A DNA stretch of 64,000 nucleotides from Rhodopirellula halodulae. GTDB taxonomy: Bacteria; Planctomycetota; Planctomycetia; Pirellulales; Pirellulaceae. Under the pieces are notes generated by a model. The model saw only the letters and a list, made by a program, of their open reading frames with translations, was not told the origin of the DNA and searched no databases. Each line of letters starts with the position of its first letter. Position 1 is the stretch's first letter. Below, one piece after another: positions 7,900 to 21,345 of the stretch. The stretch covers positions 62,001 through 126,000 of the forward strand of contig NZ_JAJKFV010000009.1 of NCBI RefSeq assembly GCF_020966775.1. The letters are read 5' to 3'. Position numbers and translations under genes: made by a program.

Positions 7900-8352
7900 T
7901 CAGTGGCACCGGGCGGCTCGCGCCGCGTCCGCTAAGGGTGTCGCGGACCACTCCGTGGTCCGCTGGGGTTGGGTTTCGGCAAGGTTTGAGCGGCCGCGGT
8001 GGTTTGAATTGCTCGTGATGGAGTGTGGCAACCGCGGCTCATGCCGGTCGGCTACTTGGTTGCTCGGGGTGTTGGGGCATTTGCGGAAAAAGCATGTGCG
8101 CCAGCGTTGGTGGACACCGGGCGGCTCGCGCCGCGACCGCTAAGAGTGTCGCGGACCACTCCGTGGTCCGCTGGGGGGGGATTTCGGCGAGGTTTGAGCG
8201 GCCGCGGTGGTTTGAATTGCTCGTGATGAGGTGGCAACCGCGGCCAATGCCGTTCGGCTACTTGGTTGCTTGGGGTGTTGGCCGCGTTTGCTAGGGCGGT
8301 GTTTTTTGGGGTGTCCAATTGGAGTTGTCGCGTAGGTCCGGTTCCACCGGAC
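7900..8352. repeat. Intergenic palindromic-repeat array, about 207-bp period
   Basis: The gap between the convergent genes at 6456-7835 and 8417-9541 holds two C elements (7942-7962 and 8151-8171, with perfect 9-bp arms around loop TCC), two B elements (starting 8029 and 8235) and one A element (8336-8352). Corresponding copies are 206-209 bp apart, so this is a local duplication of a C-B unit with a terminal A. A conserved stretch GACACCGGGCGGCT precedes the second C element and a close variant the first. No gene is supported here. Confidence 0.85.
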
Positions 8353-9546: not shown

Positions 9547-10878
9547 TCAGTCGCCCCGCATCTTCAGTCCAAGGTCAGCCAGCTTTTCGCGGACTTCGTT
9601 CAAACTGGTCACACCGAAGTTTTTGCACTCCAGCATGTCGTCGCCGGTTTTGCGAATCAGTTCGCCGATCGAGTTGATCTGCAAACGAGTCATGCACTTG
9701 CGGGCACGAACCGACAGGTTCAGGTCGCTGATCGGGCGTTCCAGCAACGCTTGCTCGTCCGGTGACATGTGCGACGTGTCGACTGGTGGGTCGTTTGATT
9801 TCTTTTCGCCAGCGAATTGGCCAAGCGAGAGGCCTTTTTGCGACAGCATCTCGCGAATTTCGATGAGGCTGGTCTCGCCGAAGTTCTTGCTGGACAGCAA
9901 CTCTTGCTCGCTGTGGCGAGTCAGGTCGCCGATCGTTTCGATGCCCATCTTTTGCAAGCAGTTGCGGCTTCGAACACTGAGTTCAAAGTTCGAAACGGGC
10001 ATGTTCAGCGTTTGTGCCAAGCGATCGTTGCGACGTTGAGCTTCCTCGTCGTACAGCATGTTGCCGGTCGCCGAGGCGTCCTTCATGTACAACTGCGTAC
10101 GAGGGTGGTCGGGATGGCAGTCCAGAATTCGTTTGTAACAGGCTTGAGCCTTGTCGTACTGGCCGTTGTCCTCGTACATCACGCCCAAGTTGATCAGGGC
10201 ACCGATGCCGGTCGGGAATGCCTTGGCCGCACGTTCGTAAAGCTTCAACGCTTCGTCATCGTTGCCCAAACGGTCGTTTTCCAATGCCAACCCGAACAGG
10301 GCACCCGCGTGGTTTTCGTCGGTCGAAACCGCACGTTGGTACAAGTTGATGGCTTCTTCCATGCGACCACCGATTTGAGCGGCTGTGGCGGCACGTTGGT
10401 ACATGTAGTCCGCGGTTTGTTCAGCGGGGCCGAAGATGTCGTCGAGGATGGCCATCGCCTCCTCGATTTTGCCTTGGTAGCGTTTGGCTTCCGCGATGCC
10501 AATCTTGCACTGGTCTTCGTTGTAGCCAGAAGTCTTGGCTTTGTCGTAGCCCTCGATGGCACCGTCGAAGTTCGACAATTCGAATTGGCAACGAGCGTGA
10601 TAGAACAACGCCATCGCGCTGCCGTCGGCTGCCGAAAGGGTTTCCGAGGCGTCTTTGAAACGTCCCAACAGGAACTGGCAAACGCCCATTTTGGTTTTGC
10701 CGGCGGGCGTCAACGCGTCGTCTTGTTCCATTTCGTTGACGGCGTCACGAAGCTCACCAAAGTGACCGTAGTTTTCGGTGATGGCTTTGCGGATCTCGGC
10801 CACGTCGCTGGGGCCGAACGAGTTGCTCGCCAGAACCATTTGCTTCAGGTCGAGAACTTCGAGTTCGACTTCGCTCAT
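9547..10878 (-). CDS. TPR protein with two C-terminal RNA polymerase alpha-CTD-like domains
   Basis: The 443-residue protein has a helical N-terminus, then about six tetratricopeptide repeats (residues about 60-275, for example [20 protein letters not shown] and [20 protein letters not shown]). Two domains closely resembling the C-terminal domain of bacterial RpoA follow, at about 295-355 and 380-440. The first has [39 protein letters not shown]; the second has [39 protein letters not shown]. In RpoA these are the DNA- and activator-binding (HhH)2 folds, and the DNA-contacting arginine in the SVRS/SVRA segment is present in both. It is cytosolic. A role in transcription or nucleic-acid binding is inferred, with TPRs providing protein contacts. 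It lies between a tRNA gene and tgt. Confidence 0.85.
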
Positions 10879-11158: not shown

Positions 11159-11656
11159 GGGCCGTCGCGGCCCGGCAATTCCCGGTGCAAACGAGTTCCC
11201 GCGGGACGCCAGCGACGGGAGGCACGAAAAAATTCCTCAAAAAATTTGGTTCGGTCGGAAAAATTTTTGATTGCTTCAGAAAGAATTCAAAAGAATTCTG
11301 CCCGGCTGATTTTGCGAATGGCCGTTGGCGTCAGAATTGCTGACACCACAATCGAGCCTGTGGGGGCGCATTCCGGCTTTTCGGGGGCATGCAACCGCGA
11401 TGGGGGGTGTTAGAATGATGACACTCGTCGAGTTGAAGTTCGACGAAAGGGCGGAGCCGGACCCGGTGGACGGACCAGTGAGCGTCCAGCCAATGCGATT
11501 TCGGCTGGAAATCGGAGTGTCGTTTGCATCGAGGGGTGCCGGACGGGGCCTCGCTGGGTTCACCAACACATGAGAGTGACGCTCGCTGATGTGGCGAGCC
11601 TGAATGGTCTCTCAAATTCGCTCGGAACACATTGTTGCAATGGAAGGACGTTCGAC
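11159..11656. other. Intergenic region between tRNA-Thr and the Pup-like operon
   Basis: This 500-bp gap contains an AT-rich patch (about 11226-11300) with a perfect inverted repeat AGAATTC-AAAA-GAATTCT at 11282-11299. Nearby is GGGCCG-TCG-CGGCCC-type symmetry at about 11159-11173. A short plus-strand frame (11414-11573) ends in an ATGA overlap with an alternative start (11570) of the next frame. I cannot show it to be a gene. The promoter of the 11657-13785 operon should lie here, but I could not pick one with confidence. Confidence 0.4.
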
Positions 11657-11914
11657 ATGAAGATGACGAATAGCTCGAACGATTGTCCACAAGCTTGTCT
11701 TGTGAAGGACTCGCCAGGGACGCCAGTCGATCATCAAGGCGAACCTGCGAAGTTCGATTCTGCCGCACCGCAATCCGGTGGGGCATCTTCCACGCCGCTC
11801 GATTTGGAGCGTTTGTCAGCATTGACGCGTTTGTCAGCTTTGATTGGGGAAGACGCGAAAACGGATGCCGCGATTTACATCCATCGAGCCAACACACATC
11901 ACGACGGCGAATGA
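11657..11914 (+). CDS. Small protein ending in Gly-Glu, candidate Pup/UBact-like modifier
   Basis: ATG 11657 is chosen because GGAAGGA lies 8 nt upstream; the frame could also open at ATG 11570, which has no ribosome-binding site. The 85-residue product has a hydrophilic, probably disordered first half rich in Ser, Pro, Asp and Gly. An amphipathic helical stretch follows (residues about 48-65, with the duplicated segment RLSAL-T-RLSAL). The C-terminus is THHDGE. Its stop overlaps the start of the PafA/Dop-family gene (ATGA), so the two are translationally coupled. Pup and UBact proteins are small and disordered, end in Gly-Gln or Gly-Glu, and are encoded beside their ligase. The resemblance is positional and in these general features. 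I see no clear sequence alignment to either family, so function is inferred. Confidence 0.6.
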   Translation: MKMTNSSNDCPQACLVKDSPGTPVDHQGEPAKFDSAAPQSGGASSTPLDLERLSALTRLSALIGEDAKTDAAIYIHRANTHHDGE

Positions 11915-13785
11915 GCTCACCGGCCGCGAGATTGGCGATTCGACAGCGTTTGTGCCGTCGATTGATGGGCATGGAAACGGAATTCGCGACGTTCGTTGAA
12001 CCGTTGGACGGCGGTGTTCAATCTCAGGTGTCGGCTCGCGAGGTATACGTTGCGTTGCGAGACGCTATTTGTCGCCAGATGCCAGCGGTGGAAGGATTGG
12101 ATGGTGGGGACCGCCGGTTCTTTGCCAACGGGTCGGCATTGAATCTGGAAACGCATCTGTCGTTTCGCGATGAACCCGGCGGATTGGTCGAAATGGCCAC
12201 GCCGGAGGTGCTGCGTCCGAGCGACTTGGTGGCGTGTCAACGCGCGATCGATGAGATCATGCGAGAAGCGAGCGGCGAAGTCCATTTTGAACGTGGACAA
12301 AGTGTTCACCGCTTGAGAGTGCTGAAGAACAGTTGCGATGCGGCCGGGCATTTGTACGGCTGTCAAGAAAACTATGAAACGGACGTCGCCAGCGGGCTGG
12401 GACTGGTGGCGTACCGATTGGCCATCGTTTGTTTGTGGGCGATGCAGGTCATCTGCGTTTTGTTGTCGATCCCGGTGGTCGCCAGCATCGTGGTGGCGTC
12501 GATGTTGCAACGCGGGCTGAGCAACCTTCGTTTGCGACGTGGCATCAACGAGCAAACAAATCCAGCCGTTGAATCGGATGAGGATCAACGCGTTGATTCG
12601 TTCACGGATGACGATGAATGGTTGGACGAATGCGAGAGCGATTCAGAAGAAAGCTTTGTGGCTTTGCCGCGTTGGTTTCAATGGTTGTCGATCACGTTGA
12701 TGCGGATCTTGCATTTGCCGCTCGTGTTTGGTTTGCGTGTGGTGGGATCGCATTTCGCCTTTCGTGCCCAACGTCGATACCTGACGGGATTGTTAGTTTC
12801 GCGAATCGCCATCATGGGTACCGGGCACTTGGACCACGATGGATGTTTTTTCCTGTCGGGCAAAGCTTTCGGTGTGGATCGAGTGACGGACATTGGTGGC
12901 TTCAGCGGTGAACGTCCGATCTTTGTTTATGGTCATTGGTTGACCAAGCTGTGCGGTCGATCGTGGCGTTCGATTGCTGAGACTCGTCATCTTCTGAAGC
13001 AACGACAACGTCTGCAAATTGGTTTGTCGGATTCCAACCTGAGTGATCTGGCGCAGTGGGCCAAGATTGGCAGCGTGGCGTTGGTGTTGGACATGATCGA
13101 GTCGAAGGAAACTCGGGATCTGCCGCGATTGCGACGTCCCATTCGAGCGTTGCATGTTTTCAACCGCGATTGGAATCTGTTGCGGCGCGTCCCCACCACT
13201 CATGGTGAGATGACATCGCTGGAGTTGCAGACCAAGTACTATCGCGCCGCGGAGGCGTTCGTTCGCAAGCAACAGTCCACGACCAAACGTGCATCGGAAT
13301 GGGACGAGGCTGAGCGTGCGTTGCAACACTGGGCCGAGTCGATTCGTTTGGTTCGGCAATTCCGAAAAGATGGTCATCAGACCTCGCAGGGGCTGGGCCG
13401 AATCGATTGGTTGGGCAAGCGTTGGATGATCGATCAAGCGGTTGGCGAAACGCCTGGCGAGTCGGCGTCATGGACCATTCGGAAGAAGATTGATTTGCGT
13501 TATCACGAGTTGTCGGAAGAAGGTTACTTCGCTCGGTTCATGGAAGATCATCAAGAGCGAGAGTTGATCCATCGGGGCGACGTGACTCTGCGGCGAAGAA
13601 ACGCACCGGCGGATTCGCCCGCGGCACATCGAGGTTGGATGATTCGCGAGTTCTCGGGAGAGGCGTCTGCCGAGGGACGTCCGGTGATGCGAACGGATTG
13701 GGACCGAGCGTTGGTGAATCAGGATCAAGCCGTCCGGACGGTGGTGTTCCGAGAGGCAGACAAACGCGGACCCGCAAACGCGTGA
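11911..13785 (+). CDS. PafA/Dop (Pup ligase/deamidase) family protein with transmembrane insertion
   Basis: The start ATG 11911 overlaps the stop of the small GE-ending protein; the product has 624 residues. Family landmarks run in order: RRLMGMETEFATF (residues 16-28; compare GIETEFG of PafA), NGSALNLETH (73-82) and LVEMATPE (92-99), then KNSCDAAGHLYGCQENYE (139-156), then IGLSDSNLSDLAQWAKIGSV (370-389) with LVLDMIE (391-397), and RIDWLGKRWMID (497-508). PafA/Dop are glutamine-synthetase-fold enzymes that use ATP to attach, or cleave off, the C-terminal Glu/Gln of Pup at lysines. Unusual here is an insertion at about residues 160-290 holding two hydrophobic segments (about 163-197 and 256-278) around a very acidic linker (219-248). 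The catalytic Asp position of PafA is Glu80. It is probably a membrane-bound ligase or deamidase-like enzyme. Confidence 0.85.
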   Translation: MSSPAARLAIRQRLCRRLMGMETEFATFVEPLDGGVQSQVSAREVYVALRDAICRQMPAVEGLDGGDRRFFANGSALNLETHLSFRDEPGGLVEMATPEVLRPSDLVACQRAIDEIMREASGEVHFERGQSVHRLRVLKNSCDAAGHLYGCQENYETDVASGLGLVAYRLAIVCLWAMQVICVLLSIPVVASIVVASMLQRGLSNLRLRRGINEQTNPAVESDEDQRVDSFTDDDEWLDECESDSEESFVALPRWFQWLSITLMRILHLPLVFGLRVVGSHFAFRAQRRYLTGLLVSRIAIMGTGHLDHDGCFFLSGKAFGVDRVTDIGGFSGERPIFVYGHWLTKLCGRSWRSIAETRHLLKQRQRLQIGLSDSNLSDLAQWAKIGSVALVLDMIESKETRDLPRLRRPIRALHVFNRDWNLLRRVPTTHGEMTSLELQTKYYRAAEAFVRKQQSTTKRASEWDEAERALQHWAESIRLVRQFRKDGHQTSQGLGRIDWLGKRWMIDQAVGETPGESASWTIRKKIDLRYHELSEEGYFARFMEDHQERELIHRGDVTLRRRNAPADSPAAHRGWMIREFSGEASAEGRPVMRTDWDRALVNQDQAVRTVVFREADKRGPANA

Positions 13786-13812: not shown

Positions 13813-14380
13813 CGCGGACCATTCCGTGGTCGAGCGCGGGCCGGCGTGTTTCGAGCTGATGCAGATTGGGGTGGCGTGCGATGTTTTGGTTGGGGGGCTT
13901 TGGTGGGGCGAGCGTTGTTGGAGATTGGTGGTTGCTCGAGAGATTGTGTGGCAACCGCGGCTAACGCCGATCGGCTACTTGGTCGCTCGGGGCGTTTGGT
14001 TGGTTTGCCAGGGGGATGTGTTTTGGTTTGTTTGCTTGATGTTGGCGTGTAGGTCCGGTTCCACCGGACGTTTGTGTTGGCGGAGTGGTGTTCGATTTTT
14101 GGTGTGCGTGTGTCTTTCGGTGAGAATGAGTCGCCTTCAGGGCAACCTGGCAACCGCGGCTAACGCCGATCGGCTACTTCGTTGGTTGGGAAATTGGATT
14201 GGCTTGCGAGGGCGGTGCGTTTTGCGGTGTCGAAATGCCGTGGGCGTGTAGGTCCGGTTCCACCGGACGTTTGTGTTGGCGGGGTGGTGTTCGGTTTTTG
14301 GTGTGCGTGTGTCTTTCGGAGAAAATGAGTCGCCTTCAAGGCAACCTGGCAACCGCGGCTAACGCCGATCGGCTACTTGG
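13813..14380. repeat. Intergenic palindromic-repeat array, 199-bp period
   Basis: A diverged C element starts at about 13813. B elements start at 13952, 14151 and 14350, exactly 199 bp apart. A elements lie at 14053-14069 and 14252-14268, also 199 bp apart. The unit B-A with spacer (containing GGTGTGCGTGTGTCTTTCGG) is therefore repeated about 2.3 times. From 14381 to 14542 I see no repeat and no gene. Confidence 0.85.
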
Positions 14381-14542: not shown

Positions 14543-17092
14543 GTGACGGACACACGCTTGTATCGAATTGGAAATCGGATGGGTCGTTCTGAATCGTTGG
14601 ATCCGGGGCTTCGCGAATTGTTGTCGCGATTGCGAGACCGGGTGCGGCGCTACATTGTTTGGGATTCACTGCTCGCGATCGCGGCGCTGGTGCTGGTGGT
14701 CTTTTGGATCGCACTGGCCGTGGACTATTTGCCCGTCCGGATCGGCGGCAGCGAGATGCCTCGTTCGGCGCGAGCCGTCGTGTTGGTCGTGGTCGCGATC
14801 TTGGTCGCCGCGATTCTTTCCAAATGGTTGTTTGGCCGGTTGCGACGTGAGTTGCCGGATGACTCATTGGCATTGCTAATCGAACGGCATCATCCAAATT
14901 TGGGCGGTCGTTTGGTGACCGCGGTGCAACTGACCGAGCAAAACCGACAACACGATTCGCACAGTCCTGTGTTGTTGCGTCGTGTTCACGAAGAAGCCGC
15001 TGCGGCGGTGGATCAAGTCGAGTTCGGACGCGTGTTCCGGTGGGAACCGATTCGTCGGAAGTTGATGTTGGTCGTGCCGTTGTTGTTGGCGGCGTTGGTG
15101 ATGGCGGTCGCCAGTCCGCAAACGTTTGCTCGTGCCATTGGGCGATTGTCGCTGTTGTCGGATTCGCCTTGGCCTCGCAAAGCCGCGCTCGAAATGGTCG
15201 GCATTGAGTCACCGATCATCACCGCCGATGAAACAGAAGAAGTGACAACCGAGCTTCTCACCTTTGAAGACAAGACGTTGCGATTGGCTCGCGGCAGCAG
15301 CACGACTTTGCGAATCCGTGCGGCCACGGAAGAACTCGGCCACATCGTTCCCGATGTTTGCACGGTGTCTTACGTGGACGACGCTGGCAATCGAGGTCAA
15401 AGCAATTTGCGTCGCGTGGGACGAGTCCAAGACGGTTATCAGTCGTTTGTCTTGGATGGTCCGCCACTGACATCGCTGGCGGAATCCGTGACGATGACCA
15501 TTCGCGGTTTGGACGATCGTTTGCTGGATTATCGAATCGAAGCGGTGGATCCCCCGGCGATCGCGGAAATGGAATTGGCAATCCGCTATCCGAATTACCT
15601 GCGGATCTTTGACGCCGGTGGGGCCGATCCGAATTCGGAGGATCAAGTGCTGGCTTATCAAGCCGGATTCCGAATTCGCGAAGGCAGTTCGTTGACCCTG
15701 CGTGGCACCAGCAGCAAGCCGCTGGGGGCGGTGGACGTTTCCACCAGTTCTGATCAAACCGCCGCGAATTTGCCGAGCAGCGAAGTCGTTGGTGATGGAA
15801 CCGATCGTGAGGATCAATCGGAACCGGCGATGCCTTCGGTGCGCATTTCAGATGATCGCATGTCGTTCGAATGGTCGGTGAACGATCTGAGAGAACCCAC
15901 GTCGGTCCGCTTGGTGCCGCGTGATGAGACCGGGATCTCCGCCCAAGCTTCGTACCGCTATTTCATTGGCGTCGTTCGCGACCAAGTTCCCGAGACGACC
16001 ATGTCGATGAAAGGCATCGGTTCGTCCATCACTCCAATTGCGATTTTGCCCATCCAAGCCACCGCGAAGGATGACTACGGCGTGGAATCGTTGAGCCTGA
16101 CGATGGCGTTGCGTGCAGCCAGCGACGGAAGCGATTCAGATACGACCGGCGATGAGGAGGCCGCGATGAAGCAACACACCGTTGCACCGGAGCTCGATCG
16201 CGATGGGAATTCGGAATGGACGTTTGACCTGAGAGACTTGGCCGACGACGGGACCATTCCGGCACCCGAGCCCGGGGCGAGTTTGCAGATCTTCACTACA
16301 GCGAAGGACCGATTCGACTTGGCCGAACCCCATGTTGTTCGTGGGGAAGTGGTACGGTTGGAAGTCGTGACGCCAGAGACTTTGTTGGCCACGTTGGAAC
16401 GTCGGGAACTGGAGTTCCGTTCGCGGTTGGAACAAGCCATCGATGAGACGCGACGGTTGCGTCAGAGTTTGGTGGCTGTGCAGAGCGATGCACTGAATGT
16501 GTTGAAAGAAGACGCGGATGCCGGCGATGGTGGTGAGTCGGACGACGCTTCGGAAAATGAATCGTCGAATGGCGACGAAGACGAATTGCGGGCTCGGCAA
16601 CGCGTGCAGTTGCGGATTCGCCAAGCCGAATTGCAGGCCAGCAAATCAACCGAGGAGTTGGCCGGCATCGTGGTTGGGCTCGAAGATCTGCTGTTGGAGA
16701 TGATTCAAAACCGAGTGGATTCCGTCGACCGACGCGAGCGGTTGGAAACGGGCGTGCGAGATCCCTTGTCGGCGGTGGTGACGGAACCCTTGCCGAGGTT
16801 GAAGCGTCAAATCACTTCGATGGAACGGATTTTGATGTCCGAAGGCGAGTCGGGGGATTCCGCGGGAAGCAACGGTGACTCGGTGGCTGACATGACGACC
16901 GCAGCGAATGACGCGATTGCGACGACCGATGAAGTGTTGCTTTCGCTGTCCGCTGTCTTGGAAAAAATGCTTGACCTAGAAAGTTTCAACGAAATTCTGG
17001 ATTTGGTCCGTGGCTTGATCAGCGATCAGGAAGAATTGATCGAGGAAACGGAGGAGACGCGAAACCAGCAGGTCCAGGATTTGTTCAAGTAG
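14543..17092 (+). CDS. Large inner-membrane protein of unknown function with C-terminal coiled coil
   Basis: The 849-residue frame starts at GTG 14543, just after AGGATGG; an ATG twelve codons later (14579) is an alternative start. Three hydrophobic segments lie in the first 200 residues: about 41-62 (LLAIAALVLVVFWIALAVDY), 78-98 and 174-193. A long soluble region with beta-rich character follows (about 200-600), then a charged coiled-coil segment with many Glu, Gln and Arg (about 610-720), ending in EETEETRNQQVQDLFK. I do not recognise the family; similar proteins occur in planctomycete envelope gene clusters. The next two genes, both exported and coiled-coil rich, follow in the same direction and probably form one operon. 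An envelope structural or assembly role is a guess. Confidence 0.7.
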   Translation: MTDTRLYRIGNRMGRSESLDPGLRELLSRLRDRVRRYIVWDSLLAIAALVLVVFWIALAVDYLPVRIGGSEMPRSARAVVLVVVAILVAAILSKWLFGRLRRELPDDSLALLIERHHPNLGGRLVTAVQLTEQNRQHDSHSPVLLRRVHEEAAAAVDQVEFGRVFRWEPIRRKLMLVVPLLLAALVMAVASPQTFARAIGRLSLLSDSPWPRKAALEMVGIESPIITADETEEVTTELLTFEDKTLRLARGSSTTLRIRAATEELGHIVPDVCTVSYVDDAGNRGQSNLRRVGRVQDGYQSFVLDGPPLTSLAESVTMTIRGLDDRLLDYRIEAVDPPAIAEMELAIRYPNYLRIFDAGGADPNSEDQVLAYQAGFRIREGSSLTLRGTSSKPLGAVDVSTSSDQTAANLPSSEVVGDGTDREDQSEPAMPSVRISDDRMSFEWSVNDLREPTSVRLVPRDETGISAQASYRYFIGVVRDQVPETTMSMKGIGSSITPIAILPIQATAKDDYGVESLSLTMALRAASDGSDSDTTGDEEAAMKQHTVAPELDRDGNSEWTFDLRDLADDGTIPAPEPGASLQIFTTAKDRFDLAEPHVVRGEVVRLEVVTPETLLATLERRELEFRSRLEQAIDETRRLRQSLVAVQSDALNVLKEDADAGDGGESDDASENESSNGDEDELRARQRVQLRIRQAELQASKSTEELAGIVVGLEDLLLEMIQNRVDSVDRRERLETGVRDPLSAVVTEPLPRLKRQITSMERILMSEGESGDSAGSNGDSVADMTTAANDAIATTDEVLLSLSAVLEKMLDLESFNEILDLVRGLISDQEELIEETEETRNQQVQDLFK

Positions 17093-20343: not shown

Positions 20344-21345
20344 GTCCGGTTCCACCGGACTGGTGAGCCGTAGGTCCGGTTCCACCGGACGTTGGTTGGG
20401 ATGGTGCGGGAGGTTTTTCCGGTGGTGAGTTTCTTAGCTGGCGACGCTCTCGAGATCTCCCGCGTGGGAACCGCAGCTAACGCTGTTCGGCTGCTTGGTT
20501 GCTCGAGCGATTAAGCGGTTTGGATGTAGGTGAGCTGTAGGTCCGGTTCCACCGGACGTTGGTTGGGTTGGTGCGGGAGGTTTTTCCGCTGGTGAGTTTT
20601 TTTAACCGGCGACGCCCACGAGATCTTCCGCGTGGGAACCGCAGCTAACGCTGTTCGGCTGTTTGGTTGCTCGAGCGGTTGGGCGGTTTGGACGTTGGTG
20701 AGCTGTAGGTCCGGTTCCACCGGACGCTGGTTGGGTTGGTGCGGGAGGTTTCTCCGGTGGTGCGTTTGTTAAACCGGCGACGCTCACGAGATCGGCCGCC
20801 TGGGAACCGCAGCTAACGCTGTTCGGCTGCTTGGTTGCTCGAGCGATTGGGCGGTTGGGCGTTGGTGAGCCGTAGGTCCGGTTCCACCGGACGCTGGTTG
20901 CGTTGGTGCGGAAGGTTTTTCCGGTGGTGAGTTTTTGTAGCTGGCGACGTTCGCGAGATCGGCCGCGTGGGAACCGCAGCTAACGCTGATCGGCTACTGG
21001 GTTGCTCGAGCGATTAAGCGGTTTGGATGTAGGTGAGCTGTAGGTCCGGTTCCACCGGACGTTGGTTGCGTTGGTGCGGAAGGTTTCTCCGCTGGTGAGT
21101 TGTTTTAACTGGCGACGCTCACTAGATCTCCCGCGTGGGAACCGCAGCTAACGCTGATCGGCTGTTGGGTTGCTCGAGCGATTGGAGGGTTTTGACGTTG
21201 GCGAGCTGTAGGTCCGGTTCCACCGGACGCTGGTTGGATTGGTGCGGGAGGTTTTTCCGCTGGTGAGTTTTTGTAGCTGGCGACGTTCGCGAGATCGGTC
21301 GCGTGGGAACCGCAGCTAACGCTGTTCGGCTGCTGGGTTGCTCGA
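20344..21345. repeat. Tandem array of a 168-bp unit containing A and B' palindromic elements
   Basis: A elements lie at 20344-20360, 20374-20390, 20541-20557, 20709-20725, 20876-20892, 21044-21060 and 21212-21228. B' elements (GAACCGCAGCTAACGCTG and following bases) start at 20466, 20634, 20802, 20970, 21139 and 21308. Both series repeat every 167-169 bp, giving six units. Each unit also carries a GGTGCGGGAGGTTTTTCCG-like segment and a CTCGAGCG site. Individual bases differ between units (TTCGG or ATCGG, for example), so the array is not a recent exact expansion. Open frames on the minus strand here are repeat-derived. The array separates the convergent genes ending at 20302 and 21446. Confidence 0.92.

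Follow-up and report, generated by a model that had tools for sequence, protein, structure and literature searches.

A predicted Glu-ending Pup-like modifier gene paired with a membrane-type PafA-like ligase gene in Rhodopirellula and related Planctomycetota

In biochemical work, pupylation has been characterized chiefly as a tag for the proteasome. Outside the actinobacteria, the UBact system of Gram-negative bacteria combines a small disordered modifier with PafA-like enzymes. The closest described system was predicted in 2008 by Iyer, Burroughs and Aravind, who reported Pup together with a PafA carrying inserted transmembrane (TM) segments in Rhodopirellula and Plesiocystis (PMC2588565). 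In that paper's account of the pair, four TM segments are inserted after core strand 4, the Rhodopirellula genes are unlinked to proteasome genes, Pup is unannotated there, and membrane-associated targets are proposed (PMC2588565). Planctomycete enzymes have also served as an outgroup in a study that reports a partial alignment to the Dop-loop (PMC7947786). An experimental test of the 2008 prediction was not found in the open-access literature (subscription papers and preprints were outside its scope).

Here, we analyzed a stretch of 64,000 nucleotides of Rhodopirellula halodulae (contig NZ_JAJKFV010000009.1, positions 62,001 to 126,000), called the window below. It carries a gene pair with the following features:

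11642–11648, + strand: ribosome-binding site GGAAGGA, 8 nt 5' of ATG 11657 (read directly)
11657–11914, + strand: Pup-like modifier gene, 85 aa (read directly; kept in congeners)
11911–11914, + strand: ATGA overlap, in which the modifier TGA (11912–11914) lies over the ligase ATG (11911)
11911–13785, + strand: membrane PafA-like Pup ligase gene, 624 aa (PF03136, E 2.9e-74; the only PF03136 match of the genome)
12148–12150, + strand: codon of Glu80, at the position of the catalytic Asp in PafA/Dop (by alignment to PDB chains)
12379–12519, + strand: hydrophobic insertion of the ligase, residues 157–203, one or two TM helices (Kyte-Doolittle maximum 2.65)
12685–12747, + strand: second hydrophobic stretch of the ligase, residues 259–279 (Kyte-Doolittle maximum 1.58)

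An earlier note on this DNA had described the 85-codon frame, its ribosome-binding site, its Gly-Glu end and the ATGA overlap, all of which were read directly in the window, and the PafA/Dop motifs that it quoted are present in the 624-residue protein. Its proposal of a pupylation-like pair is supported by gene comparison, but such a pair had already been predicted for Rhodopirellula in 2008, which it did not mention (PMC2588565). The window shares with the system outlined by Iyer et al. the same gene pair, the G[EQ] end, the TM insertion and the lack of proteasome linkage (PMC2588565). The pair is therefore a further member of the type predicted in 2008 and not new in kind.

The modifier is a hydrophilic protein with a Gly-Glu C-terminus (...THHDGE), and its tail, translated from the window, is ...AIYIHRANTHHDGE. 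It overlaps the ligase gene by 4 nt only. Counting the window, 8 of 71 linked loci have an overlap of the ATGA kind in the ligase frame, which may couple the translation of the two genes. When the window was compared with five congeners, 24 near-terminal modifier codons gave a pooled pN/pS of 0.34 in frame, and the two alternative frames gave 1.34 and 1.84; the modifier C-terminus is under purifying selection in its own frame. Furthermore, a scan of the first-collected loci and 15 kb of the window for the motif D..Y/F-aliphatic..G[EQ]-stop matched at the PafA start of 22 loci and of the window (23 in all) and at a single further place, a 26-codon frame, while missing the unlinked clade described below.

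The ligase scored 251 bits against PF03136 (Pup_ligase; cut-off 25), covering profile positions 1–439 of 441. Its frame is open for 79 codons 5' of ATG 11911, the earliest start being TTG 11683, and the start position of its closest relative (P0003) equals 11911. The nearest ligase rows on the tree belong to the same genus, Rhodopirellula europaea among them. Conservation relative to the solved chains is seen, among other places, in GIETEY, EYxTPE, KNNxDxxGxSYGCxENY and the C-terminal half, and the hydropathy profile places the hydrophobic stretches between conserved core motifs. All 110 rows agree at eight residues (E22, E24, E94, D143, E153, R298, D374 and D528).

The catalytic Asp of PafA is D64. 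That of Dop is given as D94 in a published account (PMC8599861). At position 80 of our alignment, whose equation with the catalytic Asp rests on the solved PDB chains, Glu takes the place of this Asp in 109 of 110 PafA rows, and a single row has Asp. By eye, the loop after Glu80 is ~8 residues longer than in the solved chains.

How widely is the pair kept? Loci were gathered as 51 from a contig pattern scan, 80 stretches and 30 short loci. In the family, 98 of 199 genomes have PF03136; a protein query run on the order matched 2 of 117 genomes, a sample that differs from the family survey, and eight family genomes negative by the protein query were likewise negative by the profile. After the removal of repeats, of low-scoring sequences and of incomplete ones (L026, L033, L053, L055, L156), 110 distinct PafA rows were placed on the tree. 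The upstream scan (frames of at least 30 codons, −700 to +150) found a GE-ending frame directly upstream of the ligase in 74 rows, the window counted, and none in 34; two had no upstream sequence. The earlier note's pairing and conserved GE terminus are thus upheld. Although the scan accepted GQ endings, it found no GQ-ending modifier beside the membrane PafA rows.

Outside the window, 71 distinct modifier frames were collected, with predicted lengths of 50–100 residues when starts were picked by a simple score. In an alignment of 65 modifiers including that of the window (A2), Gly-Glu is invariant, and an Asp ~20 and a Tyr ~12 residues from the end occur in at least 90%. The window thus has the marks of a Pup gene (a Gly-Glu/Gln end, 50–90 residues and a PafA neighbor), of which adjacency is broken in one 33-row clade. 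A few genomes carry more than one membrane PafA: G122, G182 and G211 have two linked copies each, and G258 (L104, L130) has one unlinked and one linked.

In a survey of the phylum, 38 of 392 genomes had PF03136. Of 29 new loci, 24 are of the membrane type by hydropathy (L235–L258; L254 and L258 are the same contigs as L052 and L054) and five are soluble tandem pairs (L230–L234). A GE-ending frame lies within 1 kb upstream in 18 of the 24 membrane-type loci and is missing from the other six, in one of which only 98 upstream bases are available. At L243, we regard a frame that ends in GQ, 992 nt upstream of the ligase, as a chance occurrence. At L052 (7649–7945) and L054 (7597–7893), the upstream frame ends in GGGE and has a hydrophobic segment near residues 30–53; the two frames differ mainly at third codon positions (25 of 44 differences), and it is possible that this modifier is itself membrane-anchored.

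The 34 rows without an upstream modifier comprise L051, a long-branch locus from a myxococcal MAG, and 33 planctomycete rows that form a single clade (SH-aLRT 100 by a quick method) of Rubripirellula, Stieleria, Roseiconus and kin. We searched 40 PF03136-bearing genomes with the A2 profile, built from linked frames only. It matched 27 of 28 unlinked-clade genomes, with E no higher than 0.0013 and with alignments that extend to the last profile position. On inspection, every match is a small frame with an Arg/Lys-Ser/Cys-Asn/Asp....DGE tail, and G299 is the genome that gave none. Among three genomes with a fragmented PafA, G214 and G283 matched and G222 did not. Nine linked control genomes all matched, as expected because all nine contribute rows to A2. 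On the other hand, 0 of 40 PafA-less family genomes (of 101; 20 were listed as matchless and 20 chosen by exclusion) matched at E < 0.01, and the best score among them, E 0.0135 in G260, belongs to a frame with a C-terminus other than GE.

In five single-contig genomes, modifier and ligase lie 0.9 to ~3.2 Mb apart, taking G242 as circular. Twenty relocated-modifier loci were fetched and 19 placed; in six of the 19, a homologue of the window gene 14543–17092 follows the modifier at 0.9–1.5 kb. Since the modifier keeps this downstream neighbor, the data suggest that it was the ligase gene, not the modifier, that changed place. The earlier note held that PafA-like loci lacking a small upstream frame would speak against a modifier, and it asked whether a conserved GE/GQ end always stands beside PafA. 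Such loci do exist in this one clade, so constant adjacency fails there, but the pairing is kept elsewhere and GE is conserved; the missing frame does not refute the modifier, because 27 of 28 such genomes searched carry it at another place. The clade also contradicts the statement by Iyer et al. that Pup invariably adjoins the PafA gene (PMC2588565).

We looked for the usual partners of pupylation in the 6.6-Mb assembly to which the window belongs. It has a single PF03136 gene, with no second PafA/Dop. No evident proteasome had been noted in the window, and this extends to the whole genome, where no PF00227 match, and hence no 20S alpha or beta subunit, was found. The PF00227 model does detect E. 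coli, used as a positive control, in which no protein of that fold other than HslV is known. Among 48 PF03136 genomes (47 with the membrane type and G228 with a second type only), 34 have one PF00227 match, 14 (this genome included) have none and none has two; the single matches are assignments at family level that do not separate HslV from Anbu-like proteins. For Mpa/ARC, PF16450, the sole ATPase model used, gave nothing above the cut-off in this genome, the best match being a 77-aa frame at E 0.0058.

The gene neighbors did not supply a partner either. Among frames of at least 110 residues in 97 neighborhoods of varied flank length, no cluster besides PafA is common to more than 12, and no protease or ATPase gene is widely conserved beside the pair. 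The membrane-type gene that follows the pair (14543–17092), whose protein is 48% identical to the L209 copy, was considered as a functional partner and rejected for the family at large because, in the 97 neighborhoods, it is shared by only six Rhodopirellula loci, apart from the six relocated-modifier loci. Iyer et al. report a linkage to a membrane-protein gene, whereas the window's following gene has this limited range (PMC2588565).

Compared with the actinobacterial Pup-PafA-Dop-proteasome system, the window shares a PF03136 ligase and a small hydrophilic modifier, in which, by eye, an aromatic-aliphatic pair lies ~11 residues before the Gly-Glu/Gln end as in actinobacterial Pup. It differs in that its genome lacks Dop and the proteasome, its modifier ends in Glu rather than Gln, Glu stands for the catalytic Asp, and the ligase has a TM insertion. 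The modifier had been called unlike actinobacterial Pup in sequence, and indeed 0 of 65 modifiers matched PF05639 (Pup), nor did NCBIfam or other Pup models match. The PF05639 result says little, however, because four Pup-like frames beside soluble PafA pairs fail as well. These frames, found in 4 of the 5 soluble tandem loci, end in GGQ (three) or GGE (one), and the soluble enzymes have Asp at the acidic motif position wherever the motif was matched. Searched against the PDB, a profile of the four soluble-pair modifiers matched M. tuberculosis Pup best (E 0.017). The profile-profile comparison of membrane-type and soluble-type modifiers was not significant; a common ancestry of the two is thus no more than plausible. 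A PDB search with the membrane-type profile gave a lone match (E 0.0012) inside a cyclase-like chain, which was judged to be chance.

A second, tandem PF03136 cluster occurs in six Pirellulaceae genomes (L148–L153), five of which also have the membrane PafA; in the sixth, G228 (63% complete), only the tandem type was seen. In five of the six loci, a Gln-ending UBact-like frame (...RRRN.SGQ) accompanies two PF03136 proteins, unlike the Glu-ending modifier of the window; the sequence of L153 is incomplete. In L148, the sole tandem-cluster locus scanned with Pfam, an AAA ATPase was found as well, together with a Prok-JAB match below threshold.

Could such a pair tag proteins without a proteasome? 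We consider it quite probable, on comparative sequence grounds, that the two genes form a membrane-anchored, ligase-only pupylation module, in which PupE is attached to lysines on membrane-associated proteins. The small protein would be made directly as PupE. As it already ends in Glu, no deamidase would be needed, which fits a genome without a second PF03136 gene. In the reaction schemes given for PafA, ATP phosphorylates the side chain of the terminal Glu and a lysine amine displaces the phosphate (PMC10465538, PMC7947786). Pupylation also occurs in laboratory E. coli made to express actinobacterial PafA and PupE (PMC7947786). The planctomycete ligase may likewise phosphorylate the terminal Glu of the modifier with ATP, after which the amine of a substrate lysine would displace the phosphate, and its membrane anchoring would direct it to membrane-associated targets. 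Because the genome lacks a 20S proteasome, an Mpa-type OB domain above the cut-off and a second PafA/Dop, the tag might regulate its target or pass it to another protease (FtsH, Clp or Lon). Several observations weigh against the module: Glu stands for the catalytic Asp and is followed by a longer loop, the enzyme scores far under the PafA and Dop equivalog cut-offs, the modifiers match neither the Pup models nor the soluble-pair profile, and no modifier turned up upstream of the ligase in six phylum-wide loci and L051 or in the profile search of G222 and G299. That the tag feeds a non-20S protease such as FtsH, and is thus degradative, concerns fate only and is compatible with the module; we regard it as possible though doubtful. 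Membrane anchoring would suit FtsH, and 34 of the 48 genomes have the family-level PF00227 match, but this genome and 13 others have none, and the pair lacks a widely conserved protease or ATPase neighbor.

Might the lone enzyme instead be mainly a depupylase, or both ligase and depupylase, so that the modifier is released from, or recycled on, its targets? Solved Dop chains score above PafA (132 versus 97 bits), reversal would need the same enzyme as it is the sole PF03136 match, and the alignment to the Dop-loop is reported as partial (PMC7947786). The NCBIfam equivalogs, both far below cut-off, favor PafA (TIGR03686, 116 bits, cut-off 551) over Dop (TIGR03688, 101.5 bits, cut-off 492), and a lone depupylase would leave the system without a ligase. 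The Dop-loop, described as 40–65 residues before strand 2 (PMC8599861), may be absent or short, because the interval from GxETE to the next core strand, counted by eye, is ~45 residues, nearer to PafA (~36) than to Dop (~73). On balance, an enzyme that is mainly a depupylase, or both, is unlikely. An enzyme that ligates a small molecule or free amino acid, with the small frame an unrelated or regulatory leader peptide, is less likely still: gamma-glutamylcysteine synthetases belong to the same superfamily (PMC2588565), and no biochemistry of the pair was found in the open-access literature, but the conservation is of a protein C-terminus, beyond a mere leader position, and the modifier persists at megabase distances from the ligase and was not found in the PafA-less genomes searched. 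That the small frame arose by chance upstream of an ordinary gene could be entertained from a single genome only; selection, conservation and, decisively, co-occurrence with PafA leave it hardly credible.

In the Pirellula-type clade, the two genes appear to be interlocked more deeply. In 22 of 22 loci (L029, L030, L035, L037, L040, L042, L045–L050, L127, L134, L136, L139–L141, L144–L147), exactly 71 nt separate a TTG in the ligase frame (+1) from the end of the modifier stop that follows. The distance from the stop to GxETE is exactly 25 nt in 19 of them, the other three reading GLECE, and in L046 and L146 this TTG is the sole ATG/GTG/TTG before the motif. The Ile/Val codon that creates the TTG has a wobble T in 22 of 22 loci versus 33% usage. 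The last 22 modifier codons diverge synonymously by 0.126 and the ligase body by 0.420 (7 pairs whose body pS is 0.2–0.62), whereas a clade without the overlap gave 0.637 and 0.590, respectively (27 pairs).

As a null, 11 Pirellula-type representatives were randomly recoded with synonymous codons in 2000 replicates, which removes relatedness among loci only partly. Only 16 of the 2000 recoded sets kept all 11 open in the +1 frame, as they are in the real loci, and none attained the observed +1 peptide identity (0.370; null mean 0.212). In a control clade of 23, the identity (0.257) was close to its null (0.239), and 84 of 2000 replicates attained it. Some results speak against the overlap: modifier codons that precede it also change slowly (pooled pS 0.209 versus 0.139), six loci of another clade share the 25-nt spacing but lack a TTG at −71, and in L089 and L090 that TTG comes with a different spacing. 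The data are better explained by an out-of-frame overlap that starts at a TTG than by a frameshift fusion of Pup and PafA, the alternative considered. Dual coding of modifier and ligase over 71 nt is thus likely in this lineage, judging from its codon patterns.

Taken together, we lean slightly toward an ancient third branch of pupylation in Planctomycetota, which would be membrane-embedded, ligase-only and obligately PupE-based, with Glu for the catalytic Asp and without Dop, Mpa or proteasome; in the Pirellula lineage, the same 71 nt would encode the reactive tail of the modifier and, in the +1 frame, the N-terminus of the ligase. If true, a widespread membrane-fixed pupylation without a proteasome would show a role for tagging outside that degradation route. 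The unlinked clade, PafA-less congeners and genomes with both systems make the prediction directly testable. A general rather than point-by-point search of the open-access literature did not bring up an unlinked clade retaining the modifier, the Asp-to-Glu change, coexistence with Gln-ending systems or the 71-nt overlap.

Two other features of the window were observed. A 28-base repeat occurs in thirteen same-strand copies with up to 3 mismatches (1069–2247, 8027–8260, 13950–14375 and 20969–20996), three of which, at 199-nt spacing, lie between the ligase gene and the next gene. The protein encoded at 9547–10878 combines TPR repeats with two C-terminal domains of RNA polymerase alpha.
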